Of a DNA stretch of 20,217 bases, positions 6,360-20,196 are shown piece by piece (within the stretch, counting starts at the first letter, position 1; each line of letters starts with the position of its first letter). A program made the translations under genes and the position numbers. The notes beneath the pieces are model-generated. The model was not told the DNA's origin, ran no database searches, and worked only from the letters and a program-made list of their open reading frames with translations. The DNA is from an uncultured Desulfuromonadales bacterium (GTDB lineage Bacteria > Desulfobacterota > Desulfuromonadia > Desulfuromonadales > Geopsychrobacteraceae): assembly GCA_945787295.1 (NCBI GenBank), contig CALZHQ010000048.1:1-20217 (forward strand), written 5' to 3'.

Positions 6360-6914
6360 TCAGGCCGCAGCCTGCCGTTCATAATCTTCCACCAGCTTGC
6401 GGTACTTCTCTTTCAGTCCCGGGAGCTGCGCCTCTGCATTTTCGTAAGCTTTCAGCATACCGGAACGAACATCTTCTGGCAGCACCCGCTCGGCAAGTGG
6501 ATAAAGGATGTTGTCTTCCTTGTCAATATGGCCGCGGAGCAGTTCGGCGTAACCCTTTGCACTTTCAGCGATCAGGGGAATCTGGCCAGGTTCACCGGCC
6601 AGAGCCTTTTCTGCAGCCTCTTCCAGCGCACGAACAAACTCACGTCCCTGGTCGTGCTCCATGTGCATCGCTTCGATAGGCGACTGCTTTTCCGGCATGC
6701 CGTTTTTGACCAGTTCCATGAAGAGCACATCCTCTTCTTTGGCATGATGGAACCGATCCGCGTAATTGCGGATAAAGTCTATTGCATCGAGAAAAAACTG
6801 CCAGTTGCGGAAATCACCCTGCTCCATCAACCTGGTATTTTTCTCCACCAGCGTGATCATCCGCAGAATCAGTTGATGCTCGTCGCTCATAACCTGGGTG
6901 ACATTGGTCTTCAT
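6360..6914 (-). CDS. Hemerythrin HHE cation-binding domain protein
   Basis: I chose the ATG at 6914 because AAAGGAG precedes it and the upstream gene stops one base earlier. A longer frame reaching 6986 is not needed. The 184-aa product is an all-helical hemerythrin-like bundle. Candidate di-iron ligands are His13 (DEHQ), His56/His57 and Glu61 (FHHAKEE), His84 and His87 (HMEHDQGREF), and His129 with Glu133 (GHIDKEDNILYP). Such proteins bind O2 or NO, or handle iron. In RIC/YtfE/ScdA this domain repairs iron-sulfur centres damaged by NO. It is the last gene of a three-gene coupled operon divergent from the nitrate reductase operon, which supports a nitrosative-stress role (inference). It has no signal peptide, so it is cytoplasmic. 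Confidence 0.9.
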   Translation of the reverse strand: MKTNVTQVMSDEHQLILRMITLVEKNTRLMEQGDFRNWQFFLDAIDFIRNYADRFHHAKEEDVLFMELVKNGMPEKQSPIEAMHMEHDQGREFVRALEEAAEKALAGEPGQIPLIAESAKGYAELLRGHIDKEDNILYPLAERVLPEDVRSGMLKAYENAEAQLPGLKEKYRKLVEDYERQAAA

Positions 6915-6915
6915 C

Positions 6916-7371
6916 TTAACTTCTCCTTTGCCCGTCGACGCCGATGATTGCAACTTCAAGCGGTACCTCTTTTCCTGATTGAGCAATCGCCTGTTGGGCG
7001 AACATCGCCAGACCGCGGCAACAGGGGACTTCCATGATCGTCACGGTGACCGACTGGATATTATTATTTGCGATCATCGCTGCCAGCTTGTCAACGTAAG
7101 GGCTGGTATCGTCCAACTTGGGACAGGCGTTGACCAACACCCGGTCTTTGATGAAGTCACGATGGAATTCAGCATAGGCAAAAGGAGCACAATCGGCGGC
7201 AATAAGTAGATGTGCATCCTGGAGGTAGGGCGCGGTCGGCGGAACCAGATGCAACTGGGTTGGCCATTGGCGAAGTTCAGACTCTACTCGACCAGCCTGG
7301 GCGCTATCGGTGACTTTTTTTTCTACAGTACGGACCTGGGTCCCCGGGCAACCACATGCTAATTTCGTCAT
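6916..7371 (-). CDS. Cys-rich redox protein, stand-alone form of a domain often fused to ferredoxins
   Basis: This 151-aa cytoplasmic protein has six cysteines: Cys6 and Cys8 (ACGCPG), Cys61 (AADCAPFAYAEFHRDF), Cys83 (NACPKLDD) and Cys117-Cys118 (MEVPCCRG). From memory, the pattern WPTQLHLVPPTAPYL...AADC...CPKLDD...MEVPCCRG matches the C-terminal half of 4Fe-4S ferredoxin-type proteins of anaerobes. Here the CxxCxxCxxC ferredoxin part is absent and only this half is encoded. Its biochemical role is not known to me. Metal or cluster binding through the conserved cysteines is an inference. It overlaps the upstream gene by ATGA and is followed after one base by the hemerythrin start, so the three products are probably made together. 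Confidence 0.8.
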   Translation of the reverse strand: MTKLACGCPGTQVRTVEKKVTDSAQAGRVESELRQWPTQLHLVPPTAPYLQDAHLLIAADCAPFAYAEFHRDFIKDRVLVNACPKLDDTSPYVDKLAAMIANNNIQSVTVTIMEVPCCRGLAMFAQQAIAQSGKEVPLEVAIIGVDGQRRS

Positions 7372-7595
7372 CTTTTATGCTCCTTTATTTTCAGATAGTC
7401 GCTGATTTCCTGCTCGATTTTCGCCTCGATCTCATCACCGAGAGCATGAATACTGACCACATCATTGACCAGACAGATACCGACGCCGCAAGTAACACAG
7501 TCGATGTTGTACTTCGTCAGTAATTCGCCGATAAAGGGGTGCTGCTCAATGGTTTTATTGATCGGCTGATCGCCGATTCCGTCAGGAAGTTTCAT
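7368..7595 (-). CDS. DUF1858/ScdA-N-like small CxxC protein
   Basis: This 75-aa protein begins with a short helical region (INKTIEQHPFIGELLTKYNID). A Cys-rich loop CVTCGVGIC follows (Cys33, Cys36, Cys41), then a C-terminal helix. The pattern resembles DUF1858 / prismane-associated redox-disulfide domains and the N-terminal domain of ScdA/RIC, where a conserved Cys motif sits before the hemerythrin domain. It is the first gene of the minus operon, with AAGGAG 7 nt before the ATG. With the hemerythrin encoded two genes later it could make a split RIC-like system, which is an inference from architecture. The exact family assignment is tentative. Confidence 0.78.
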   Translation of the reverse strand: MKLPDGIGDQPINKTIEQHPFIGELLTKYNIDCVTCGVGICLVNDVVSIHALGDEIEAKIEQEISDYLKIKEHKR

Positions 7596-7629
7596 TTATT
7601 CGCTCCTTCGTCCATTGTCTGATGGTCAG

Positions 7630-7635
7630 ACTATA
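7630..7635 (-). promoter_or_regulatory. -10 element of hemerythrin operon promoter
   Basis: On the minus strand this reads TATAGT, five of six matches to TATAAT. It predicts a start near 7623, 28 bp before the first gene. That puts the centre of the operator at 7656-7673 about 41.5 bp upstream, the class II activator geometry. No -35 box is evident, as expected for an activated promoter. Confidence 0.55.
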
Positions 7636-7655
7636 AGCGAGATAAAAAGTACAAA

Positions 7656-7673
7656 ACATGACTTGGGTCAAAA
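7656..7673 (-). promoter_or_regulatory. FNR/HcpR/DNR-like operator, hemerythrin side
   Basis: ACATGACTTGGGTCAAAA shares the core TGAC-TTGG-GTCA and the right arm GTCAAA with the better site at 7754-7771. The left arm is less perfect. Its position relative to the minus-strand -10 suits a CRP/FNR-family activator. Confidence 0.6.
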
Positions 7674-7753
7674 GCTGATTATTTTTGTCAGGTATCTATC
7701 AGGAACTGCGATTATCTGCATGGACCAAACCACAAAAAAGAAAATAAAACAGC

Positions 7754-7771
7754 ATTTGACTTGGGTCAAAT
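7754..7771 (+). promoter_or_regulatory. FNR/HcpR/DNR-like operator, nitrate reductase side
   Basis: ATTTGACTTGGGTCAAAT is a palindrome with two perfect 7-bp arms around TTGG. It differs from the E. coli FNR box (TTGAT-N4-ATCAA) and resembles the TTGAC-N4-GTCAA type recalled for HcpR or DNR-like regulators in deltaproteobacteria. It is centred 41-44 bp upstream of the predicted nar start. Which regulator binds cannot be told from the window. Confidence 0.75.
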
Positions 7772-7791
7772 CCTGGCAATCTAAAAAAGCC

Positions 7792-7800
7792 TAGTATACT
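7792..7800 (+). promoter_or_regulatory. -10 region of nar operon promoter
   Basis: The segment contains overlapping TAGTAT (7792-7797) and TATACT (7795-7800, five of six matches). The predicted start is near 7804-7807, leaving a 5' leader of about 185 nt before the cytochrome gene. A separate perfect TATAAT at 7832-7837 has no fitting -35 box and is less likely. Confidence 0.5.
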
Positions 7801-7880
7801 CATTAGGAGCGATATCCCCCCTTACTACAGTTATAATAAACAAGGAGAGGGGCCCTTCCTACCCAGACTTGCAGTGAAAT

Positions 7881-7901
7881 GCTGTTTTTGTCAAAAACAG
7901 C
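7881..7901 (+). promoter_or_regulatory. Hairpin in nar 5' leader
   Basis: GCTGTTTTT (7881-7889) and AAAAACAGC (7893-7901) form a perfect 9-bp stem with a 3-nt loop, midway in the long predicted leader. It could influence translation, stability or early termination, or be a DNA-level operator. I do not recognise it as a known riboswitch. Confidence 0.4.
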
Positions 7902-7990
7902 TGATTTTAAATAGTTCGTTTATTTATCGGCGTTGCTATCCCGCCACAAATTGAAAAGTCATAACGTCTGCGTTTGAATAAGGAGCAATT

Positions 7991-8521
7991 ATGTCGGGAA
8001 ACAGGTGGTACTGTTTATGTTCGGCTGTATTGGCGCTTTTCCTTTCTCTCCCCATTTCCTTGGCAGCTGCGACGGGTGACGCAGGGCGAGGCAAAGAACT
8101 CTTTGTCGGCAGTACGGCCTTCGAACTTGGCGGTGCTCCCTGCCTGGCTTGCCACAACCTGACTGGTTTCGGCCTATCGACGGGTGCCAATTACGGTCCG
8201 GATCTCAGTATGCTTTACGATAACTACGGCCCAGATGGCGTCGAAGGAGTCCTGCAGTCGCTGGCCTTCCCGAGTATGGAAGCCATCTACAACACCCGTC
8301 CGCTCAACGAAACGGAGCGCGCCGACCTGCTTGCGTTCCTGCAACAAACCTCACAACTATCCGCGACTCCGGAGACAGGAAAACTGGCGCTTCAGGTCCT
8401 TATCGGCGTGATTGTCCTGCTGGGCTTGACCTTCCTGATTGGTAAGAGACGCATGCGCGAGACGCGGCAACCGCTGATCGACCGCCAACGTAACCTCATA
8501 AATAAAGGTGGGCTGCAATGA
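7991..8521 (+). CDS. Membrane-anchored monohaem cytochrome c of the nar operon
   Basis: This 176-aa protein has a signal peptide at about 1-27 ([12 protein letters not shown]). One haem c site, CLACH, lies at 51-55. Met96 (FPSMEA) or Met74 is the possible sixth ligand. One C-terminal membrane helix at about 133-151 is followed by a short basic cytoplasmic tail. The haem domain should therefore face the periplasm, held by the tail anchor. AAGGAG is 6 nt before the ATG, and the stop overlaps the narG start (ATGA). Cytochromes in this position occur in some non-enterobacterial nar operons and may link NarI or the quinol pool to periplasmic electron carriers. That role is inferred. Confidence 0.85.
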
Positions 8522-11500
8522 GTTGGATTAAAGACCTTATCGATCCTAAGGCCAGGGCATGGGAAGAATTCTACCGTAACCGGAATCAGTGCGACAAGGT
8601 GGTGCGCAGTACCCACGGCGTCAACTGTACCGGCAGCTGCTCCTGGAATGTCCATGTCAAAGATGGCATCGTCGGTTGGGAGCTGCAGGCGACCGATTAT
8701 CCACCGCTCGAAGATGGTATTCCGCCTTACGAGCCGCGTGGTTGTCAACGGGGCATCTCCTTCTCCTGGTATCTTTACAGCCCCCTGCGGGTCAAATATC
8801 CCTACGTGCGCGGTATCCTCGTAGATCTCTGGCGGGCCGCCAAGGTTAAACACGAAGATCCGGTCGCCGCCTGGTCCTCGATCATGGAAGACCCGATACA
8901 ACGCAAAAGCTATCAGCAAGCCCGAGGCAAAGGAGGATTTCGCCGTGCCAGCTGGGACGAAGTTGAAGAACTGATCGCAGCCTCTACCATCTACACCATT
9001 AAAAAACATGGCGCCGACCGGCTGATCGGCTTCTCACCGATTCCAGCCATGTCGATGCTCAGCTTCGCGGGTGGCTCACGCTTCATGCAGCTGCTGGGCG
9101 GGGTCAACTTGAGTTTCTATGACTGGTACTGCGACCTGCCGAATGCTTCGCCGGAGATCTGGGGCGAGCAGACCGATGTCTCAGAGAGCGCCGACTGGTA
9201 CAACAGCAAGTACATCGCGGTGATGGGTTCCAACGTCAACATGACCCGGACCCCGGACGCGCACTTTCTGGTGGAAGCACGCCATAACGGCTCAAAGGTC
9301 ACCGTCCTCTCGCCCGACTTCAACATGACCTCGAAACACGCTGACTGGTGGCTCCCGGCCCACGCCGGTCAGGATGGCGCCTTCTGGATGGCGGTCAATC
9401 ATGTCATCCTCAGCGAATTCCACCACAAGACGAAAACGCCCTACTTCATGGACTATCTGAAACGTTTTACCGACACCCCTTTCCTCGTTCAGTTGACGGA
9501 AAAGGATGGCGTTTATCAAGCGGGACGAATGGCGACTGCCGCCAGCACCGAGGCCTACCGGGATGAAGAGAACAGCGGCTTCAAATACCTGGTCTGGGAT
9601 GAAAACCAGAACCAACCGAAAATGCCGCTCGGCACCCTCGGTTTCCGCTGGCAACAGAAAAAAGGTGAGTGGAACCTGCAGATGAAAGATGGAAAGGATG
9701 GCAGTGATATCACCCCAGCCTTGTCGTTGCTCGGCAACCACGCTGAAGAATTGCAGGTTACCTTTGACGATTTTTCCAGCGAAGCCCGAGTAAAACGAGG
9801 AGTACCGGTACACTATTTGGAAACCGCTGCCGGTCGTGTTGCTGTCACCACCGTATTTGATTTATTGATGGCACAATTCGGTGTCAATCGCGACCTCGCT
9901 GGTGATTATCCTAAGAGCTATGATGATGAGTTGCGGGCGTACACTCCGGCCTGGCAGGAAAAGTTTACCGGTATCGACCGCGCCAATGTCATCCAGTTTG
10001 CCCGTGAATGGGCCTCAACTGCGGAAACCACCGAGGGGAAATGTTCGATCATCATCGGCGCCGGCGTCAACCACTGGTACCACGCCAACCTGCTCTATCG
10101 CGCGGGCATCGTTTCACTGATGCTGTGCGGTTGCGTCGGGAAGAACGGCGGCGGTCTCAACCATTACGTCGGTCAGGAAAAACTGGCCCCGATCGCGCCA
10201 TGGGCGACTATCATGGGGGCCCTCGACTGGTCAAAGCCGCCCCGCTTCCAGAATACGCCTTCCTTCCATTATGTCCACAGTGATCAGTGGCGCTATGAGC
10301 GTACCGCTGATGAGATGCGGATCAACGCGGTCGCGGAGAACAACAAAATGACCACGGGGCACACCATGGACCAGCAGGTCCGGGCGGTGCGCAGCGGCTG
10401 GCTGCCGTTTTACCCGCAGTTTGATCGCAGTCCGACCGAGGCGGTCAAACAAGCCGAGGCTTCGGGGGCGAAAAGCAACCAGGAGATTGTCGACTGGACG
10501 GTTGATCAGCTGAAATCGAAACAGATGAAGTTCGCTGTCGAAGATCCGGATGCCCCGGAAAACTGGCCCCGGGTCTGGTTCATCTGGCGCGGCAACGCCC
10601 TGATGTCGAGCGCCAAGGGGCATGAATATTTCCTCAAGCATTATCTCGGCACCCATTCCAGTACCGTTGCCCCGGAAACCGCCGAAGACTCCGTCAAAGA
10701 AGTGGTCTGGCATAAAGAGGCCCCTGAGGGCAAACTCGACCTCATCGTCGACATCAATTTCCGCATGGACACTTCGGCGGTCTATTCCGATATCGTTCTG
10801 CCGACGGCAACCTGGTATGAAAAGGACGATCTGAACACCACCGACATGCATTCCTTCATTCACCCGTTACAGGAAGCGGTGCCCCCTTGCTGGGAATCGA
10901 AGAGTGACTGGAATATCTTCAAAGATCTGGCAAAAAAAGTCAGTCAGCTGGCACAAACTCATCTGCCGGAACCGGTCCGCGACATTGTCTCGGTCCCTTT
11001 GGCTCACGACACCCCGGCGGAAATGGCCCAGCCTGAAATCAAGGACTGGAGCACCGGCGAGTGCGAGGCAATTCCCGGCAAAACTATGCCCGGGCTGGCA
11101 GTGGTTGAAAGGGACTACGTTAACCTTTACAACCGCTTTATCTCCTTCGGTCCCGGCGCCCGCGCCAACGGCATCGGCGCTCATGGCCTGGCCTGGCAAA
11201 TCGAGGATTTTTACGATCAGCTGGTTGAGACCAACCCGACGGAAAACTGGGGAGGCAAGACCTATCCGTCGCTGGATAATGCCAAGGACGCGGCCAATAT
11301 CATCCTGCAACTGGCACCCGAAACCAACGGCGAGCTGGCCTATCGTGCCTTTAAAGTGAAAGAGGAAAAAGTCGGCCTGCCGCTGGTTGATCTGGCCGCC
11401 GATACTCGCGCCGTTCGCACCACCTTTGCCGAACTGGACCGGCAACCGAAACGGCTGCTGACCAGCCCTTGCTGGAGTGGTCTGACCAACAACGGTCGAG

Positions 11501-12141
11501 CCTATGCCGCCTACAGTCTCAATGTAGACCGGCTGGTTCCCTGGCGGACCCTGACCGGGCGGCAGCATTTCTATCTGGACCATGAAGGCTACATCGCCTA
11601 TGGCGAACATCTGCCGACCTACAAAATCAAGCCCGATCCAAGTTCACTGCAGGATCTGATTGTCAGTGAATCGGATGAGCAGAGCATCATGCTCAATTAC
11701 CTGACTCCGCACGGCAAATGGGGCATCCACTCGACCTATGGCGATAATCACCGGATGTTGACCCTGTCTCGCGGCTGCCACCCCTTCTGGATCAATGATC
11801 AGGATGCTGCACAGATCGGCGTGGTCGACAACGACTGGGTTGAGGTTTACAACGATCATGGCGTTGTCGTCACCCGGGCAGTGGTCAGCGCCCGGCTGCC
11901 ACGGGGAATCTCGCTTCTTTACCATGCGCCAGAACGCACCATCGGTGTTCCCAAGTCGCCGTTGCGCGGTAACAAGCGCGCTGGTGGCCATAACAGCCTT
12001 AACCGGATCCGTCTTAAGCCGAACCTGATGCTCGGCGGCTATGGACAGTTTACCTACGGCTGGAACTACTGGGGACCGACCGGCGCCAACCGCGACACTT
12101 TCATCCTGGCCAGAAAACTCAAAGGGGAGCCGAGCTGGTAA
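8518..12141 (+). CDS. narG: Respiratory nitrate reductase alpha subunit NarG
   Basis: This 1207-aa catalytic subunit carries the bis-MGD molybdenum cofactor and the FS0 cluster, and reduces nitrate to nitrite. By comparison with E. coli NarG the FS0 ligands are His33, Cys37, Cys41 and Cys76 ([11 protein letters not shown]...PRGC). Asp206 in FYDWYCDLP matches the Mo-ligating Asp222. Other landmarks are [29 protein letters not shown] and [12 protein letters not shown]. The length is close to the usual 1,200-1,250. The N terminus is short and lacks a twin-arginine motif, so I place it on the cytoplasmic face with NarH and NarI. It is translationally coupled to the cytochrome gene upstream and lies 29 bp before narH. 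Confidence 0.98.
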
Positions 12142-12170
12142 TCCCGGCACGGAATAAAGGAGCGATGACT

Positions 12171-13658
12171 ATGAATATACGTGCACAGGTATCCTCGGTT
12201 TTCCATCTCGATAAGTGTATCGGCTGCCACACCTGCAGCATCGCCTGCAAGAATATCTGGACCGACCGTAAAGGTGCTGAGTACATGTGGTGGAACAATG
12301 TTGAGACCAAACCGGGAACCGGTTACCCGACCAAATGGGAAGATCAACAACAATACAAGGGCGGCTGGGAGAAGGCCGGTTCCGACCTGCAGCTGAAGAT
12401 GGGCAAAAAATCGGCCTTGCTCGGCCGGATTTTTCACAATCCCGATCTGCCGACCATGGACGACTACTATGAGCCGTTCACCTTTAAGTACCAGGACCTG
12501 ACCAACGCTCCGGCCGGTGATGACCAACCGACGGCCCGTCCGGTGTCGATGGTCAGTGGCAAGCCGATGAAGATCGAAGCAGGACCGAACTGGGATGATG
12601 ACCTTTCCGGTTCGAACATCTATGCCGCCAATGATCCGGGAGTGGTGAAACTGAGCGAAGAGGAGCAGCAGCAGATGTTCGCCATCGAGAAGATGGTCAT
12701 GTTCTATCTGCCGCGCATCTGCAACCACTGCCTCAATGCGGGTTGTGTGGCGGGGTGTCCGTCCGGCGCCATCTACAAGCGCGGCGAAGACGGCATCGTG
12801 CTGATCAGTCAGGACAAATGTCGTGGCTGGCGGATGTGTGTTTCGGCCTGCCCCTACAAGAAGACCTACTACGGCTGGAGCAGCGGCAAGTCGGAAAAAT
12901 GCATCCTCTGCTATCCGCGCCAGGAGGCCGGTGAAGCGCCCGGCTGTTTTCATGCCTGCGTCGGCCGCATTCGCTACCTCGGGGTCCTGCTCTACGACGC
13001 CGACCGCATTGAGGACGTCGCGAAACTGGAAGATAAGGAACTGGCGGCAGCGCAGCGTGAGATGATCCTCGATCCCTTCGAACCGCAGGTGATCGATGCC
13101 GCTAAAAAAGCCGGAATTGCAACGGCTGTGATCGATGCCGCACAGAAATCACCGACCTATAAATTCGTCAAGGAGTGGGGCATTGCCCTGCCGTTGCATC
13201 CGGAGTTCCGGACCTTGCCGATGTTGTTTTACGTGCCGCCGTTGTTGCCGATCCTGTCGAAAGAGCAGCAGGGTGTCCAGAAATTGGCCGACGACTTTTT
13301 CACCAGTCTCGAACAGGCCCGGTTGCCGCTGAAATATCTTGCCGGTCTGTTTGCCGGCGGCAATGAAGAGGAAATTAAATCGGTCTATCGCAAACTGATC
13401 GCGGTGCGGATTCAGCGTCGCAGCACGACGGTTGGCGACCTGGACAGCGCAGAAGTCGATAAGGCCCGTGAAACCGCCGGGCTCAACGCTGAAACCATCG
13501 AGGCGATCTTCCGCATGACCTCGCTGACCAGCATCAAGCAGCGGATCGTTATTCCACCGATGCTGCGCGAGCAGGCGATCGAGGCCGGGATGGATCCAGA
13601 GGCCTACAAACAGGAAATGGGCTTCGGTAGCCGCAAAGCTCCTAAAAGGCGGTGGTAG
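12171..13658 (+). CDS. narH: Nitrate reductase beta subunit NarH (iron-sulfur)
   Basis: The frame is open from an ATG at 12165, but AAGGAG is better spaced for the ATG at 12171. That start (MNIRAQV) lines up with E. coli NarH, giving 495 aa. Four ferredoxin-type Cys clusters are visible: DKCIGCHTCSIACKN near the start, CNHCLNAGCVAGCP, DKCRGWRMCVSACPYKK, and CILCYP...CFHACVGRIRYLG. The Trp in CRGWRMC replaces a cysteine and marks the 3Fe-4S site typical of NarH. The protein passes electrons from NarI haems to NarG. It sits between narG and narJ in the standard order. The conserved ALPLHPEFRTLPM segment follows the cluster region. Confidence 0.97.
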   Translation: MNIRAQVSSVFHLDKCIGCHTCSIACKNIWTDRKGAEYMWWNNVETKPGTGYPTKWEDQQQYKGGWEKAGSDLQLKMGKKSALLGRIFHNPDLPTMDDYYEPFTFKYQDLTNAPAGDDQPTARPVSMVSGKPMKIEAGPNWDDDLSGSNIYAANDPGVVKLSEEEQQQMFAIEKMVMFYLPRICNHCLNAGCVAGCPSGAIYKRGEDGIVLISQDKCRGWRMCVSACPYKKTYYGWSSGKSEKCILCYPRQEAGEAPGCFHACVGRIRYLGVLLYDADRIEDVAKLEDKELAAAQREMILDPFEPQVIDAAKKAGIATAVIDAAQKSPTYKFVKEWGIALPLHPEFRTLPMLFYVPPLLPILSKEQQGVQKLADDFFTSLEQARLPLKYLAGLFAGGNEEEIKSVYRKLIAVRIQRRSTTVGDLDSAEVDKARETAGLNAETIEAIFRMTSLTSIKQRIVIPPMLREQAIEAGMDPEAYKQEMGFGSRKAPKRRW

Positions 13659-13660
13659 TC

Positions 13661-14206
13661 ATGACGAATCTACAAACCCACCAGGATATCTGTCGCCATT
13701 TCTCTGCGCTGCTCAGTTACCCGACGACAGAGGCGCAGAGCACCGCCGCTGTCTGCCAGAATCTGCTGCGGGAGCACCAACCGAAGGCGGCTTCGCAACT
13801 GCAGGAGTTCGTCGAGCTGTTAGCGGCGACCGAACCGGCCAAGCTCGAAGAACTGTTCACAGCCACCTTCGATCTGCAGCCGGTCTGTCATCCCTACGTT
13901 GGCTATCAGCTCTGTGGCGAGAGTCAAAAGCGCGGGATGTTTCTTATGAAAATGCAGCAACTCTATCGCGAGCATGATTTTAACCCGGGGACTGAATTAC
14001 CTGACCACTTGGGCGAAATGTTGCGATTTATCGGCACGACCGACGATCAAAGCTGCCGCCAGGAACTGATCAGCGATGGCCTGCTACCGGCACTTGAAAA
14101 AATTATTGCCGGACTGGATAACGCAGAGCATCCCTATCATGGGGTGCTCACTGCACTGCACAGTTTCTTGAATGCAGACAGCGCGGAAAAAGGAGCCCTA
14201 TCATGA
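13661..14206 (+). CDS. narJ: Nitrate reductase chaperone NarJ
   Basis: A GTG start at 13652 is possible, but the ATG at 13661 follows narH by 2 bp and has an AAGGCGG ribosome site, giving 181 aa. The all-helical protein belongs to the TorD/DmsD/NarJ chaperone family. Landmarks are the early LLSYP segment and the central ATFDLQPVCHPYVGYQLCGESQKRG block. NarJ binds apo-NarG, guides molybdenum cofactor and FS0 insertion, and controls docking to NarI. It is not part of the final enzyme. Its stop overlaps the narI start. Sequence conservation in this family is low, so identification relies partly on position. Confidence 0.93.
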   Translation: MTNLQTHQDICRHFSALLSYPTTEAQSTAAVCQNLLREHQPKAASQLQEFVELLAATEPAKLEELFTATFDLQPVCHPYVGYQLCGESQKRGMFLMKMQQLYREHDFNPGTELPDHLGEMLRFIGTTDDQSCRQELISDGLLPALEKIIAGLDNAEHPYHGVLTALHSFLNADSAEKGALS

Positions 14207-14880
14207 TCGACATGATTCTTTTCGGCGTCTTCCCTTATGTAGCAGTTGCGCTGGCGGTCGCCGTCGGTATCTATCGTTACTGTTTCGACCGCTACTCCTA
14301 TTCATCACAGTCCTCTCAGTTTTTGGAGAGTAGAGCGCTTTTCTGGGGCTCGGTCCCTTGGCATTACGCAATCCTGCTGGTGCTGTTGGCCCACCTGTTG
14401 GCATTTCTCTTTCCGACCGCCTGGGGGACATTACTTGGCGCGCCGGGGCGCCTATACCTGCTGGAGGTTTCGGGGATGGTGCTCGGTGTGGTCACCTGCA
14501 TCGCCATGCTAGTGCTGATTTTCCGCCGCGCTGCCAACCACCGGGTCAATGCCGTGACAACCACGGTCGACTGGTTTCTACTGGTCGCTCTGCTGGTTCA
14601 AGTCGCGTCCGGTGTTTACATCGCGATCAGCATGCGCTGGGGCGGTTTCTGGTATGTGCATACGGTTTCGCCCTGGCTCTGGTCGCTCGTCTCTTTCAGC
14701 CCAAACGTCGAATATCTTGCGAGCATGCCGTTTGTTGTCAAACTGCATGCGACCAACGCATTTTTCCTGGTCGCATTGTTCCCCTTTTCGCGGCTTGTCC
14801 ATGTGATCAGCATACCTTTGGCCTACATCGCTCGGCCTTATCAGCTGGTGATCTGGTATCGGCAACGGAAACAGGCCTGA
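14203..14880 (+). CDS. narI: Nitrate reductase gamma subunit NarI (b-type cytochrome)
   Basis: This 225-aa membrane subunit has five hydrophobic helices. Four haem-ligating histidines fit the E. coli pattern: His54 and His64 (10 apart, as E. coli 56/66) and His182 and His200 (18 apart, as 187/205). The subunit oxidises quinol at the periplasmic side and sends electrons through two b haems to NarH, which makes the enzyme proton-motive. AAGGAG precedes the ATG, which overlaps the narJ stop. It ends the narGHJI block, and narK1 follows after 63 bp. Confidence 0.97.
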   Translation: MIDMILFGVFPYVAVALAVAVGIYRYCFDRYSYSSQSSQFLESRALFWGSVPWHYAILLVLLAHLLAFLFPTAWGTLLGAPGRLYLLEVSGMVLGVVTCIAMLVLIFRRAANHRVNAVTTTVDWFLLVALLVQVASGVYIAISMRWGGFWYVHTVSPWLWSLVSFSPNVEYLASMPFVVKLHATNAFFLVALFPFSRLVHVISIPLAYIARPYQLVIWYRQRKQA

Positions 14881-14943
14881 GGAGTTACGCTTGCGGAATG
14901 CGGCAGACTCTGAACGGAGAGCCTAACTTGAAAAGGTGTGAAC

Positions 14944-16446
14944 ATGCTCGAAGTTGCCACCAGTAAATCTCACAAAGTTCTCTTCCTGAACACCCTGGCG
15001 TTTACCGTCTGCTTCGCCGCCTGGATGTTCAATGGTGTGCTGGTGACCTTTCTGGCCGACAACCAGGTTTTTGCCTGGGGACCGGTTGAGATCGGCTGGC
15101 TGATGGGAATTCCGGTTCTGACCGGTTCAGTTTTCCGCCTGCCGGCCGGGATGCTGACCGATAAGTTCGGCGGCAAACCGGTCTATGGAACTCTGCTGCT
15201 GGTCTGTGCTGTCCCGATGTTCCTGCTATCAAAGGCCGATAGTTTTACCAGCTTTGCTCTCTGCAGTTTTGGTTTCGGTCTGGCGGGAGTCAGCTTTTCC
15301 ATCGGTATCGCCTTCACCTCGGTTTGGTACCCACGAAAACGTCAGGGAACCGCACTGGGGATTTTCGGCGCCGGGAACGCCGGTGCGGCTTTGACGACCC
15401 TGTTCGCTCCAACCCTGCTCAACCGACTGACCAATAATGGAACCAACATAGAAGGCTGGCGGGAGCTGCCTGTCTATTACGCGATGATTCTAGCCGGAAT
15501 GGGCATCATTTTTTTTCTTTTTGCCGACAACAAAAAGCCGGCGTCTTCAAACAAATCGTTCACTGAAATGCTTCGCCCTTTGTCGGATATCCGGGTCTGG
15601 CGGTTCGGTCTCTACTATTTTCTGGTCTTCGGCTGCTTCGTCGCCTTCTCCCAGTGGCTGGTTCCCTACTTCGTCAATGTCTACTATCTCCCACTGGTCA
15701 CCGCCGGGATCTTCGCTGCGGCCTTCAGCCTCCCCTCGGGTGTCATCCGGGCACTGGGCGGCTGGCTCTCGGATCTGTTCGGTGGGCGAACCATCATGTA
15801 CTGGGTGTTAGGTGCTTCGGTACTGCTCAGCTTTCTAGTCATCATCCCAAAGATGGACATCTATTCACCGGGGCGCGGCATTATGGCGGCACGAGGTGGC
15901 ACCGTCAATGAGGTCACAACCACCAGGATTATTGTCGGCGATAAAGTCTACCAACTACGGGAAAAGCCGGAAATCGCAAATTATGATACAGAGATGCTGG
16001 TTCTGCCGAACAAACAGACCTGGCAGGAGCCGGCTGTTGAGGTCGGTCAGCAAGTAAAAAAGAAGGAGCTGTTGGCAAAAGGGGTGACGCGGATCTTCTT
16101 CCAGGCCAACGTCTGGATCTTCGCCATCTTCGTTATCCTGCTCGGCAGTATCTGGGGAATCGGTAAAGCAGCCGTGTATAAACTGATACCGGATTATTTT
16201 CCGGAGGAAGTGGGTGTCGTCGGCGGCATGGTCGGGGTACTCGGCGGACTGGGTGGTTTTTTCTGCCCGATCATCTTCGGCTACCTGTTGGAATGGACGG
16301 GCCTCTGGACCAGCTGCTGGATTTTCATGTTCCTGTTGTCGCTAGCGTGTCTGCTCTGGATGCACTGGACGGCTACAAGATATATGAAAGAAAAGCACCC
16401 GACCGATATGCGCAAGATGGAATTGCACAATAATCAAGAAGCTTAG
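14944..16446 (+). CDS. narK1: NarK1-type nitrate transporter (MFS) with a periplasmic insertion
   Basis: I prefer the ATG at 14944 to the GTG at 14938 because AAAAGG lies 7 nt before it. The 500-aa product has 12 predicted membrane helices of the nitrate/nitrite porter family. Family motifs are FRLPAGMLTDKFGG after helix 2, SIGIAFTSVWYPRKRQG at helix 4, and GIGKAAVYKLIPDYFP at helix 10. This subtype is usually a nitrate/proton symporter. About 80 extra residues (304-383) lie between helices 9 and 10, on the periplasmic side if the N terminus is inside. They include IIVGDKVYQL and AVEVGQQVKKKELLAKG, which resemble a barrel-sandwich (biotinyl/lipoyl-like) fold. Without the insertion the length is a normal 420 aa. 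Confidence 0.93.
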   Translation: MLEVATSKSHKVLFLNTLAFTVCFAAWMFNGVLVTFLADNQVFAWGPVEIGWLMGIPVLTGSVFRLPAGMLTDKFGGKPVYGTLLLVCAVPMFLLSKADSFTSFALCSFGFGLAGVSFSIGIAFTSVWYPRKRQGTALGIFGAGNAGAALTTLFAPTLLNRLTNNGTNIEGWRELPVYYAMILAGMGIIFFLFADNKKPASSNKSFTEMLRPLSDIRVWRFGLYYFLVFGCFVAFSQWLVPYFVNVYYLPLVTAGIFAAAFSLPSGVIRALGGWLSDLFGGRTIMYWVLGASVLLSFLVIIPKMDIYSPGRGIMAARGGTVNEVTTTRIIVGDKVYQLREKPEIANYDTEMLVLPNKQTWQEPAVEVGQQVKKKELLAKGVTRIFFQANVWIFAIFVILLGSIWGIGKAAVYKLIPDYFPEEVGVVGGMVGVLGGLGGFFCPIIFGYLLEWTGLWTSCWIFMFLLSLACLLWMHWTATRYMKEKHPTDMRKMELHNNQEA

Positions 16447-16478
16447 CGGCCTCATTGTCTCAGGAGAGGATAGCGATC

Positions 16479-18083
16479 ATGCCAATCAATCTAAATAAAT
16501 GGGATGTCGAAGACGAGCAGTTCTGGAATGCCGAAGGAAAGAAGATTGCCACCCGCAATCTGTGGATTTCGATCCCCAGCCTGCTCTGCGGCTTTGCCGT
16601 CTGGCTCTACTGGAGCATCATCACCGTGCAGATGATCAACCTCGGCTACCCGTTCAGTCAGTCGCAGCTGTTCACCCTCTCGGCGATTGCCGGACTGACC
16701 GGGGCAACCCTGCGCATCCCCAGTTCTTTCCTGATTCGCATCGCCGGAGGGCGCAACACTATCTTCTTCACAACAGCCCTGCTGATGATTCCTGCGATCG
16801 GCACCGGGATCGCCCTGCAAAACAAGGCGACACCGATCGAGATCTATTACCTGCTGGCGCTGCTTTCGGGAATCGGCGGCGGCAACTTTGCTTCGTCGAT
16901 GTCCAACATCAGTTTTTTCTTCCCCAAGCGGGTTCAGGGAACGTCCCTCGGCTTGAATGCGGGGCTGGGTAATTTCGGCGTAACCACCATGCAGGTTCTG
17001 ATTCCGCTGGTGATGACCTTCGGGCTGTTCGGTGGAAATTCGCAGACGCTGATCAATACCAGTGGGACCCTGATCGGCAAGATACCGGCCGGCACCGAAA
17101 CCTATATCCACAACGCTGGCTATATCTGGCTGGTACTGCTAATCCCGTTAGCCTTTGCCGGCTTCTTCGGAATGAACAACATCAAAACCGAGACGGTTTC
17201 ACCAGATGTTGATTCAACAGCCAAAGCTTTCGGCAAAATTACCGGGCTGTTGCTGATCGCCTTTGTCACAGCCAGCATCGGTCTGTACCTGCTGTTGCCG
17301 GCACCGGTCGGTTTGGGATTGTTGAGTAAATGGATCGTCCTGCCACTGGTCATCGCGGCGACCGTCTTTGGGATGAAATACCTGACCCGGGGGGATTTAC
17401 GCGCCAATTTGGAGCGGCAGTACCGGATTTTCAACAATAAGCATACCTGGGCGATGACCGTCATTTACACTATGACCTTCGGCTCCTTTATCGGCTACTC
17501 GGCTGCCTTTGCCCTGTCGATCAAGGTCATTTTCGGATTCTCCCATATCATGGTTGATGGTGTGCTGACCCACAACACGGTTAATGCCAACGGTCCAAGC
17601 GCCCTGATGTTCGCCTGGATGGGGCCGTTTATCGGCGCACTGATCCGTCCGGTCGGCGGCAAAATCGCCGACAAGCTCGGCGGTGCACTGGTAACCCAGT
17701 GGGTCTCGATCGTCATGATCATCTCGGCGCTCGGTTGCGCTTATTTCATGAAGACCGCCTACGCTTCAGCAACCCCGGAGAGTTATTTCTACCCCTTCCT
17801 GCTGCTGTTCATCATCCTTTTTGCGGCCACCGGCGTAGGCAACGGTTCCACCTTTCGCTCCATCGCCATGATCTTCGACAAAGAGCAAGCCGGGCCGGCC
17901 CTCGGTTGGACATCAGCGGTAGCGGCCTATGGCGCCTTTATCATCCCGCAGGTTTTCGGTGAGCAGATCAAAGCAACCACTCCGGAGTATGCGCTGTACG
18001 GATTTGCGGTTTTCTATTTTATTTGTCTGGTACTCAACTGGTGGTTCTATACACGTAAAAACGCCTATATCCAGAATCCGTAA
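16479..18083 (+). CDS. narK2: NarK2-type nitrate/nitrite antiporter (MFS)
   Basis: The start is set at the ATG at 16479, 9 nt after AGGAGAGG. A TTG at 16455 is less likely. The product is 534 aa. Nitrate signatures are GGGNFASSMSNISFFFPKR (about 133-151) and GVGNGSTFRSIAMIF (about 452-466). Arg79 (LRIPSSF) and Arg390 (ALIRPVGG) match the substrate-binding arginines of E. coli NarK. E. coli NarK is about 460 aa with 12 helices. Here two extra hydrophobic helices at about 251-300 lie in the central loop, giving about 14. This subtype exchanges nitrate for nitrite. The first gene of the pair is NarK1-type, so together they cover start-up and steady-state uptake, as in known NarK1/NarK2 pairs. 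Confidence 0.94.
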   Translation: MPINLNKWDVEDEQFWNAEGKKIATRNLWISIPSLLCGFAVWLYWSIITVQMINLGYPFSQSQLFTLSAIAGLTGATLRIPSSFLIRIAGGRNTIFFTTALLMIPAIGTGIALQNKATPIEIYYLLALLSGIGGGNFASSMSNISFFFPKRVQGTSLGLNAGLGNFGVTTMQVLIPLVMTFGLFGGNSQTLINTSGTLIGKIPAGTETYIHNAGYIWLVLLIPLAFAGFFGMNNIKTETVSPDVDSTAKAFGKITGLLLIAFVTASIGLYLLLPAPVGLGLLSKWIVLPLVIAATVFGMKYLTRGDLRANLERQYRIFNNKHTWAMTVIYTMTFGSFIGYSAAFALSIKVIFGFSHIMVDGVLTHNTVNANGPSALMFAWMGPFIGALIRPVGGKIADKLGGALVTQWVSIVMIISALGCAYFMKTAYASATPESYFYPFLLLFIILFAATGVGNGSTFRSIAMIFDKEQAGPALGWTSAVAAYGAFIIPQVFGEQIKATTPEYALYGFAVFYFICLVLNWWFYTRKNAYIQNP

Positions 18084-18097
18084 GCAGGAGTAGATCA

Positions 18098-18535
18098 ATG
18101 AACGAATTGCAAAAAACGGAACTTTATCGGACCATCTGTGAGGAAGCCCCGGACGCCATCCTATTTGCCGACCAACAGAGTATCATCCGGACCTGGAACA
18201 AGGGGGCCGAGCTGATGTTCGGCTATTCAGCGGAAGAAGCGATCGGGCAGTCATTGGATCTGATCATCCCAGAGAACCTCCGCCAGCGTCACAACGATGG
18301 CTATGCGGCGACTATGAAGAGTGGACACAGCAAGTATGGCCACGAACTGCTCTCGGTGCCCGCAGTCCACAAAGACGGCCGGCGACTGTTCTGTGATTTC
18401 TCTATTGTTATGATCAAAGCTGATGATGGAGAAATGCTCGGCGTTGCATCAATCATGCGAGATACGACTGCGCAGAAAACCCGCGAGAAAGAACTGCGGG
18501 AGCGGATCAAAGAATTTGAAGCGAAAGGTTATTGA
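18098..18535 (+). CDS. Stand-alone PAS domain protein
   Basis: This 145-aa protein is one PAS domain (about 10-130) with a short C-terminal helix rich in Lys and Glu (QKTREKELRERIKEFEAKGY), probably a coiled coil. No kinase, cyclase or DNA-binding output domain is present, and no membrane segment. Motifs are PDAILFADQQSIIRTWNKGAELMFGYSAEEAIGQ and HKDGRRLFCDFS. By eye the fold is FixL-like, but the residue matching the FixL haem ligand appears to be Lys, so haem binding is not supported. It starts 14 bp after narK2 with CAGGAG, so it is in the nar operon. It may pass a nitrate, redox or oxygen signal by protein contact. Function unknown. Confidence 0.85.
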   Translation: MNELQKTELYRTICEEAPDAILFADQQSIIRTWNKGAELMFGYSAEEAIGQSLDLIIPENLRQRHNDGYAATMKSGHSKYGHELLSVPAVHKDGRRLFCDFSIVMIKADDGEMLGVASIMRDTTAQKTREKELRERIKEFEAKGY

Positions 18536-18630: not shown

Positions 18631-18786
18631 ATGTTGTATTTTGTCAAAGACAACAAACTGCACCGTTATCCCGCACCCAAACGCTGCGGAACTCAGCACG
18701 AAGAAGAAAAACTACGCGACACTATTCCCCGTGAAGTAGAACAATGCATTTACTGTATGAACTACTGGCCGGAAGACAAGGATTAG
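18631..18786 (+). CDS. 51-aa cysteine-containing small protein at the end of the nar operon
   Basis: A short frame starts with ATG 7 nt after an AAGGGGG ribosome site and ends in TAG. The product is hydrophilic and starts MLYFVKDNKLHRYP. It carries Cys19 and a CIYC motif (Cys38, Cys41), with possible His ligands at 11 and 23. This pattern would fit a small zinc- or iron-binding knuckle, which is an inference. It lies 95 bp after the PAS gene on the same strand. A terminator-like hairpin overlaps its stop, so it is probably the last gene of the nitrate operon. I do not recognise the family. Confidence 0.7.
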   Translation: MLYFVKDNKLHRYPAPKRCGTQHEEEKLRDTIPREVEQCIYCMNYWPEDKD

Positions 18787-19721: not shown

Positions 19722-19952
19722 ATGATCCGATTTAGGCTGCTAGAGTTAATGGCTGACTACCAATATAAGCACGGAAGAAAATTGACATTTGACGAGTTAG
19801 CTGAGAGCACCAATATCCACAGAGCGACTCTTTCAAAAATAGCCAATCAACGAAACGCCCAAACCCGAACCGAAAACATTGACCGCCTATGCAAATTTTT
19901 CAAATGTCAGGTGGGTGACCTTATGGAGTACGTTGAAGAAGATCAAAACTGA
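19722..19952 (+). CDS. Cro/CI-type (XRE family) helix-turn-helix regulator
   Basis: This 76-aa protein is almost entirely one XRE DNA-binding domain. It starts MIRFRLLELMADY. The HTH is LTFDELAESTNIHRATLSKIAN, and the C-terminal part is NIDRLCKFFKCQVGDLMEYV. This is the YozG/Cro-like subgroup common on plasmids, phages and toxin-antitoxin-linked loci. GAGGAGG gives a strong ribosome site. A hairpin follows 9 bp after the stop. It most likely controls its own promoter and the divergent HTH gene, and is probably a survivor of the integrated element next to tRNA-Arg. Confidence 0.85.
   Translation: MIRFRLLELMADYQYKHGRKLTFDELAESTNIHRATLSKIANQRNAQTRTENIDRLCKFFKCQVGDLMEYVEEDQN

Positions 19953-20119: not shown

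Positions 20120-20196
<77 letters not shown>

Follow-up and report, generated by a model that had tools for sequence, protein, structure and literature searches.

Positions 7600-7810 of the window, the whole 20,217-nucleotide stretch of DNA from an uncultured Desulfuromonadales bacterium that we analysed, very probably form a divergent control region that contains two distinct class II promoters, both HcpR-dependent, one reading into the nar operon and the other, in the opposite direction, into a hemerythrin operon, with activation by an NO-type signal. In the mechanism that we propose, a DNR-like CRP/FNR homodimer of the HcpR1 type, presumably encoded elsewhere in the same genome, would bind TTGAC-N4-GTCAA at -41.5 of each promoter and, once bound, would contact RNA polymerase. 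It would switch on narCGHJI-narK-narK-PAS on one side and DUF1858-FrdXc-hemerythrin on the other. The trigger would be nitrogen oxides, most likely NO, and nitrate reduction and a putative protection of iron centres against NO would rise together. Comparison with related genomes established the predicted sites, their geometry and conservation, the occurrence of this site at hcp and at frdX-like genes as well, and a fitting regulator in relatives.

Much of this was to be expected. Excerpts of Rodionov et al. (2005; PMC1274295) predict HcpR control of nar in Desulfuromonas/Geobacter, give hcp and frdX as further targets, and name hemerythrin- and cytochrome c-like genes in HcpR regulons. The region therefore joins a known regulon, as a further instance of it and not as a new mechanism. 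New details are the asymmetry of the hemerythrin-operon site and a second dyad at about -60 in a third of those promoters. In Desulfuromonadales, the arrangement would place a three-gene hemerythrin module about which little is known under the same regulator as nitrate respiration, and it provides precise predicted operator and start positions that are open to testing. Among publications on HcpR with Geobacter, nitrate reductase or hemerythrin, titles and abstract openings gave no treatment of the divergent region beyond Rodionov et al.

Predicted operators and -10-like boxes in the divergent region

The sequence-only reading had described two related palindromic sites between positions 7630 and 7800, and both were present as described (Table 1). 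They are of the TTGAC-N4-GTCAA type and exceeded chance in the window: WTGACNNNNGTCAA had three matches, representing two places with the palindrome counted on both strands, against a shuffle expectation of 0.09 (sd 0.40), and none of 100 shuffles reached three. With two mismatches allowed, the signal was weak (16 matches vs 9.6 expected; 3/100 shuffles reached 16). The hemerythrin operator reads ACATGACTTGGGTCAAAA on the plus strand. On the ten fixed bases of a wyTTGACnnnnGTCAArw-type consensus, the nar site scored 10/10 and the hemerythrin site 9/10.

Table 1. Positions of predicted regulatory elements and genes in the window
Feature	Position	Strand	Remarks
HcpR-type operator, nar operon (predicted)	7754-7771	+	ATTTGACTTGGGTCAAAT; core 7756-7769; predicted centre -41.5
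-10-like box, nar promoter	7792-7797	+	TAGTAT; 32 bp from operator centre; predicted start ~7804
Alternative nar -10-like box	7795-7800	+	TATACT; from simple promoter scan; overlaps TAGTAT; 35 bp from operator centre
HcpR-type operator, hemerythrin operon (predicted)	7656-7673	-	TTGACCCAAGTCAT then GTTTT; core 7658-7671; predicted centre -41.5
-10-like box, hemerythrin operon	7635-7630	-	TATAGT; 32 bp from operator centre; predicted start ~7623
Second dyad	7675-7691	-	CTGACAAAAATAATCAG, CTGAC-N7-GTCAG; centre ~-60 of hemerythrin promoter; starts 20 bp before operator
DUF1858-like protein, first gene of hemerythrin operon	7368-7595	-	75 aa; PF08984 15.2 bits, below cut-off 32.2
Protein like FrdX C-terminal half	6916-7371	-	151 aa; without ferredoxin domain (no Fer4 match)
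Hemerythrin-domain protein	6360-6914	-	PF01814 E 3.9e-20; start 6914 chosen, ORF opens at 6986
narC-like cytochrome c, first nar gene	7991-8521	+	Weak cytochrome c matches below cut-off
narG	8518-12141	+	TIGR01580 over cut-off
narH	12165-13658	+	TIGR01660 over cut-off
narJ	13652-14206	+	TIGR00684 over cut-off
narI	14203-14880	+	TIGR00351 over cut-off
NarK-type transporter 1	14938-16446	+	TIGR00886 below cut-off; 95% to M. rubra
NarK/NarU-type transporter 2	16455-18083	+	NarU, TIGR00886 below cut-off; 97% to M. rubra
PAS-domain protein, end of nar cluster	18098-18535	+	PF13426 and others over cut-off

The closest genome found was that of Malonomonas rubra DSM 5091 (Desulfuromonadales), with 96% identity in NarG; a search for plasmid relatives returned none. 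The alignment of window positions 7585-8000 to M. rubra has 414 paired bases, of which 313 (76%) are identical. Each operator core kept 13/14 bases, both -10 boxes 6/6 and the second dyad 17/17; by comparison, 45/64 bases were identical between the dyad and the nar site and 28/60 in 7596-7655. The distance between the operators had been put at 90 bp, a figure that needs correction: we measured 98 bp centre to centre and 80 bp between the 18-mers. As the corresponding distance in M. rubra is 100 bp, strict phasing between the operators is unsupported. The window and M. rubra were the only cases of the mirror-image pairing; in other relatives each operon has its site separately.

Each operator lies 5' of its -10-like hexamer, on opposite strands, at 32 bp centre to centre in both operons, and by the class II activator rule this spacing would put the site at -41.5. 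The earlier placement of the operators about 41-44 bp upstream of the predicted starts agrees with a predicted class II geometry, with both boxes at 32 bp; the range itself probably stems from the alternative hexamer TATACT. Class II spacing to a -10-like box is what an activator needs, and by this rule its presence at both operons argues against HcpR repressing one operon instead of activating both. We regard such repression as improbable, even though negative HcpR regulation of sulfate genes is predicted for Desulfovibrio in excerpts of the 2005 study (PMC1274295) and those of another paper present a model of HcpR2 repressing hcp in D. desulfuricans (PMC5701242).

Both operons and their promoters in related genomes

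Genome-wide checks were run on 60 relatives, M. rubra included; all counts come from related genomes and hence are not independent events. A DUF1858-like gene or operon was found in 30 of the 60. Among these 30 loci (one per genome), a gene for the 151-aa protein lay downstream in 29 and a hemerythrin gene in all 30. An operator scoring at least 8/10 was present upstream of the DUF1858-like gene in 27/30 loci, usually at a distance of 70-83 bp from the start codon; none at this threshold was found upstream in L137 and L149, and the upstream DNA of L139 is only 39 bp long. The module occurs in half of the 60 relatives and has the site upstream in 27/30 loci, and this makes it a promising candidate for a core role in nitrosative stress.

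We then considered 29 hemerythrin promoters, namely those of the 27 relative loci with a site, the window and a second M. rubra copy. Offset 32 was the best position for TATAAT (mean 3.66/6), with T-A in 28/29 promoters; the maximum in 1000 shuffles, which keep single bases only, was 2.55. The operator at this operon is usually asymmetric, TTGACC-N3-RTCATGTTT: the half-site near the promoter ends TCAT, not TCAA, in 25/29 promoters, and TCATGTTT occurs in 21/29. The extended site TTGACCNNNRTCATGTTT was found at 25 places in 20/60 genomes, compared with none for the reversed pattern. As assigned from flanking genes and coordinates, 17 of these places belong to DUF1858 operons, three to hcp and one to a PAS gene; one further place precedes an unannotated 160-aa protein, and three are unassigned. 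The second M. rubra copy of the operon lies at another contig end (L111:1-3000); after it come genes for a PAS protein and a small ferredoxin, which diverge from two more HcpR-type sites 37 bp apart.

The DUF1858/FrdXc/hemerythrin genes perhaps encode a split RIC-like module. As in RIC/YtfE, small cysteine-bearing and hemerythrin domains would be made together, here probably under a nitrosative-stress-type regulator. The cysteine stretch of the DUF1858-like protein looks by eye comparable to the DfCCgG motif, which an excerpt of PMC9268430 places in an N-terminal domain on most bacterial RICs. However, the one-chain ScdA_N + hemerythrin architecture of RIC/YtfE is replaced here by two separate proteins from separate ORFs, with the FrdX-like protein between them. 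The hemerythrin protein is distantly similar to YtfE/RIC, but it has PF01814 alone and lies far below the RIC cut-offs, scoring 26.9 bits against 254 and 24.2 against 204.7 with the RIC/YtfE equivalog profiles. The 151-aa protein likewise departs from the FrdX architecture of an N-terminal ferredoxin plus a C-terminal domain; its alignment to the FrdX-like protein of M. rubra (L112:5121-5891) covers residues 112-256 only, with 51% identity over 145 aa. In a literature search on DUF1858 with hemerythrin, NO or repair, judged by titles and abstract openings, the three-gene module was not treated.

Close NarG relatives occurred in 18/60 genomes. We counted 17 loci with a narG start, leaving out a second copy in G020, and a narC-like relative lay upstream of narG in all 17. 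Twelve of these loci, M. rubra included, carry a site of at least 9/10 in the 1.5 kb before narG; in the other five none was found in this range. Ten of the twelve have T-A at offset 32; L243 and L249 do not, and the L249 site looks doubtful. TAGTAT is for this reason the likelier nar -10 box, ahead of TATACT. The mean TATAAT score in the 12 loci was slightly higher at offset 30 (3.50) than at offset 32 (3.33); in an earlier set of eight nar loci, window included, offset 32 was best (mean 3.62). In L250, a further locus, an 8/10 site is combined with TAGATT at offset 32. Overall, the nar -10 box is less sharp than that of the hemerythrin operon.

A wider nar set of 80 loci was reduced to 75 after five with little upstream DNA (L002, L009, L021, L039 and L067) were dropped. 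Within 1.1 kb upstream of narG, a 9/10 site was present in 7/10 loci of Desulfuromonadales, a membership assigned from titles or likeness, compared with 3/65 of the others; for a 10/10 site upstream of narG the counts were 4/10 and 0/65. The in-gene control gave 0/10 and 1/65, respectively. Exact TTGACTTGGGTCAA matched in five of the 60 relatives, against one match for the reversed control, and the match in G037 lies upstream of nar by coordinates.

A DUF1858-like gene near nar was seen only in M. rubra among the 17 loci, within the stretch examined. Excerpts of work on the Thermus thermophilus narCGHJIKT cluster (PMC6282519) likewise describe a narC-led cluster and a protein with a DUF1858 domain that is linked to nitrate respiration, with DnrT as the master regulator. 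That protein, DrpB, is DUF1858-DUF2249-DUF2249, its operon lies downstream of nar, and the excerpts describe no hemerythrin partner for it (PMC6282519). In the nar leader of the window, a simple scan marked a terminator-like stem-loop (7881-7901), in which, by eye, one pair changes from T-A to C-G on both sides in M. rubra. The leader gave no Rfam match to an RNA family.

The candidate regulator and its other predicted targets

The sequence-only reading had expected an hcpR/dnr homologue, and relatives do encode one: an orthologue of the M. rubra regulator with at least 53% identity was present in 49/60 genomes, in 29 of the 30 that have a DUF1858 operon and in 20 of the 30 that lack one (the count includes two rows with an internal stop and leaves out a contig-end fragment in G030). 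No close HcpR orthologue was found in G012 and G013, which carry the extended site, or in G057, which has the DUF operon; genome completeness is not given for them. In M. rubra, one protein matched HTH_Crp_2 over the cut-off; a second match, below it, is GntR-like by sequence. The gene of the former lies next to genes for YgbA_NO and for a full-length FrdX-like protein, which are preceded by TTGATGCAGGTCAA and TTGACCTCGATCAA, each a 9/10 site. Seven regulator neighbourhoods were read: an FrdX-like gene with a 9/10 or 10/10 site was present in L112, L113, L114 and L120, and L115, L116 and L118 show no such neighbour.

DNR is an NO-responsive protein of the CRP/FNR family. DNR of Pseudomonas aeruginosa (3dkw) was the best PDB match of the M. 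rubra regulator (E 1.9e-33). It has Pro before the recognition Glu, whereas the alignment places Ser there in the M. rubra protein, and the targets here, unlike those of DNR, include hcp and frdX-like genes. The recognition helix read SETLSR in 24 and GETLSR in two of the 26 sequences that a pattern caught in 30 loci; for these sequences we assume the 180/181 numbering of the helix. The pattern missed L212, L213, L228 and L230; the L213 gene, read as L090, has SETLSR. For delta-proteobacteria apart from Desulfovibrio, excerpts of Rodionov et al. (2005; PMC1274295) link Ser/Pro180 with Glu181 to wyTTGACnnnnGTCAArw. The HcpR1 regulon described there shares with ours this motif, the Ser/Pro180-Glu181 pair and the targets hcp, frdX and nar; the hemerythrin site of our set differs from that motif in being mostly asymmetric, often with a neighbouring dyad.

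These data also bear on an oxygen-sensing FNR acting on both sites in place of HcpR, which would make the operons answer to anoxia and not to NO. FNR activates nar in enterics, and some sites in the relatives do read TTGAT or ATCAA/ATCAT. However, in each half the FNR box TTGAT-N4-ATCAA departs from the TTGAC site at base five, a difference already pointed out from the sequence, and the two window sites carry C and G there, as those of M. rubra do. FNR proteins are told by their cluster cysteines, and the sole M. rubra HTH_Crp_2 protein over the cut-off has no CxxC. Moreover, the same site precedes hcp and frdX-like genes. FNR control of the two operons is thus very unlikely.

Among HcpR/DNR/FNR-like candidates, HcpR fits best because of the TTGAC sites, the Ser-Glu helix, the absence of CxxC from the M. 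rubra protein, and the presence of the site at hcp and frdX-like genes. The proposal that a single regulator of this type serves both operons is supported by the geometry in relatives, the operon identities and the orthologue. The regulator family suggests NO or nitrite as the signal; P. gingivalis HcpR is described as a heme regulator that acts upon binding NO.

Other nitrogen-stress genes had also been expected to carry the palindrome, and the scan of relatives bore this out for hcp. We found 11 hcp loci in seven genomes, 10 of them with N-terminal codons (two of the ten being near-identical M. rubra contig ends), and nine of these 10 had a site of at least 9/10 within 200 bp, against a background of about 0.06 per 400 bp; one had no such site in that range. 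T-A was present at offset 32 in only four of the eight hcp sites examined. Immediately downstream of the M. rubra hemerythrin gene there is an hcp start, which has a 10/10 site of its own. For nrf, the site was not seen: none of six nrfA loci had a 9/10 site upstream, and only L162, L164 and L165 include the upstream DNA of the operon, as the DNA of L163, L168 and L169 (all M. rubra) stops short of its promoter. With three informative loci, this result stands against the prediction of nrfHA as an HcpR target in Desulfuromonas/Geobacter found in excerpts of PMC1274295.

In six gyrB control loci, one 9/10 match overlapped the probable start (L173) and one lay inside a neighbouring ORF (L170). 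The bare palindrome was weakly enriched in the M. rubra genome, with nine matches against five for the reversed control. Four of the nine were inside ORFs; the other five were found at nar and at both hcp contig ends, in the PAS/ferredoxin gap, and before a 222-aa protein that had no Pfam match over the cut-off.

A second dyad at the hemerythrin promoter

The dyad CTGAC-N7-GTCAG upstream of the hemerythrin operator suggests that HcpR may not act alone. It scored at least 8/10 at the identical place in 10 of the 27 hemerythrin promoters of relatives, and its mean of 5.33 exceeded that for any other spacer or offset tried (next 3.96; overall mean 2.40, sd 0.48). Upstream of the nar site of the window, the best score for the same pattern was 5, in this one nar promoter.

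Composite control, which is compatible with the HcpR reading, is one possible explanation, and we put it forward tentatively: HcpR would act at -41.5 together with a second factor on the -60 dyad, and nar might receive an extra input through a block in its leader. Besides the recurrence of the dyad, the leader block (7924-7969) keeps 43/46 bases in M. rubra and is weakly recognisable by eye in L239 and L240, two loci showing no HcpR site. However, 12/27 promoters score at most 3 at the dyad place, a few being one base off by eye, the genomes are related, and the consensus of the dyad was picked after inspection of the sequences. Alternatively, the A/T-rich spacer could serve as an alpha-CTD contact, and there is no known factor for the dyad. 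In its stronger form, in which the hemerythrin promoter is a conserved two-factor switch with HcpR on a deliberately asymmetric site at -41.5 and the second factor at about -60, the idea is again conceivable but doubtful. If it were true, two signals would be needed for the DUF1858/FrdXc/hemerythrin module, which may be a RIC-type repair system in split form, and only HcpR for nar.

The rest of the window yielded a few minor observations. A small protein, MLYFVKDNKLHRYP... (18631-18786), follows the PAS gene at the end of the nar cluster, and a relative of it adjoins the PAS gene in L111, too. Another small protein (19722-19952) appears by eye to contain an Xre-type HTH, and a tRNA gene lies at 20123-20196 on the minus strand.
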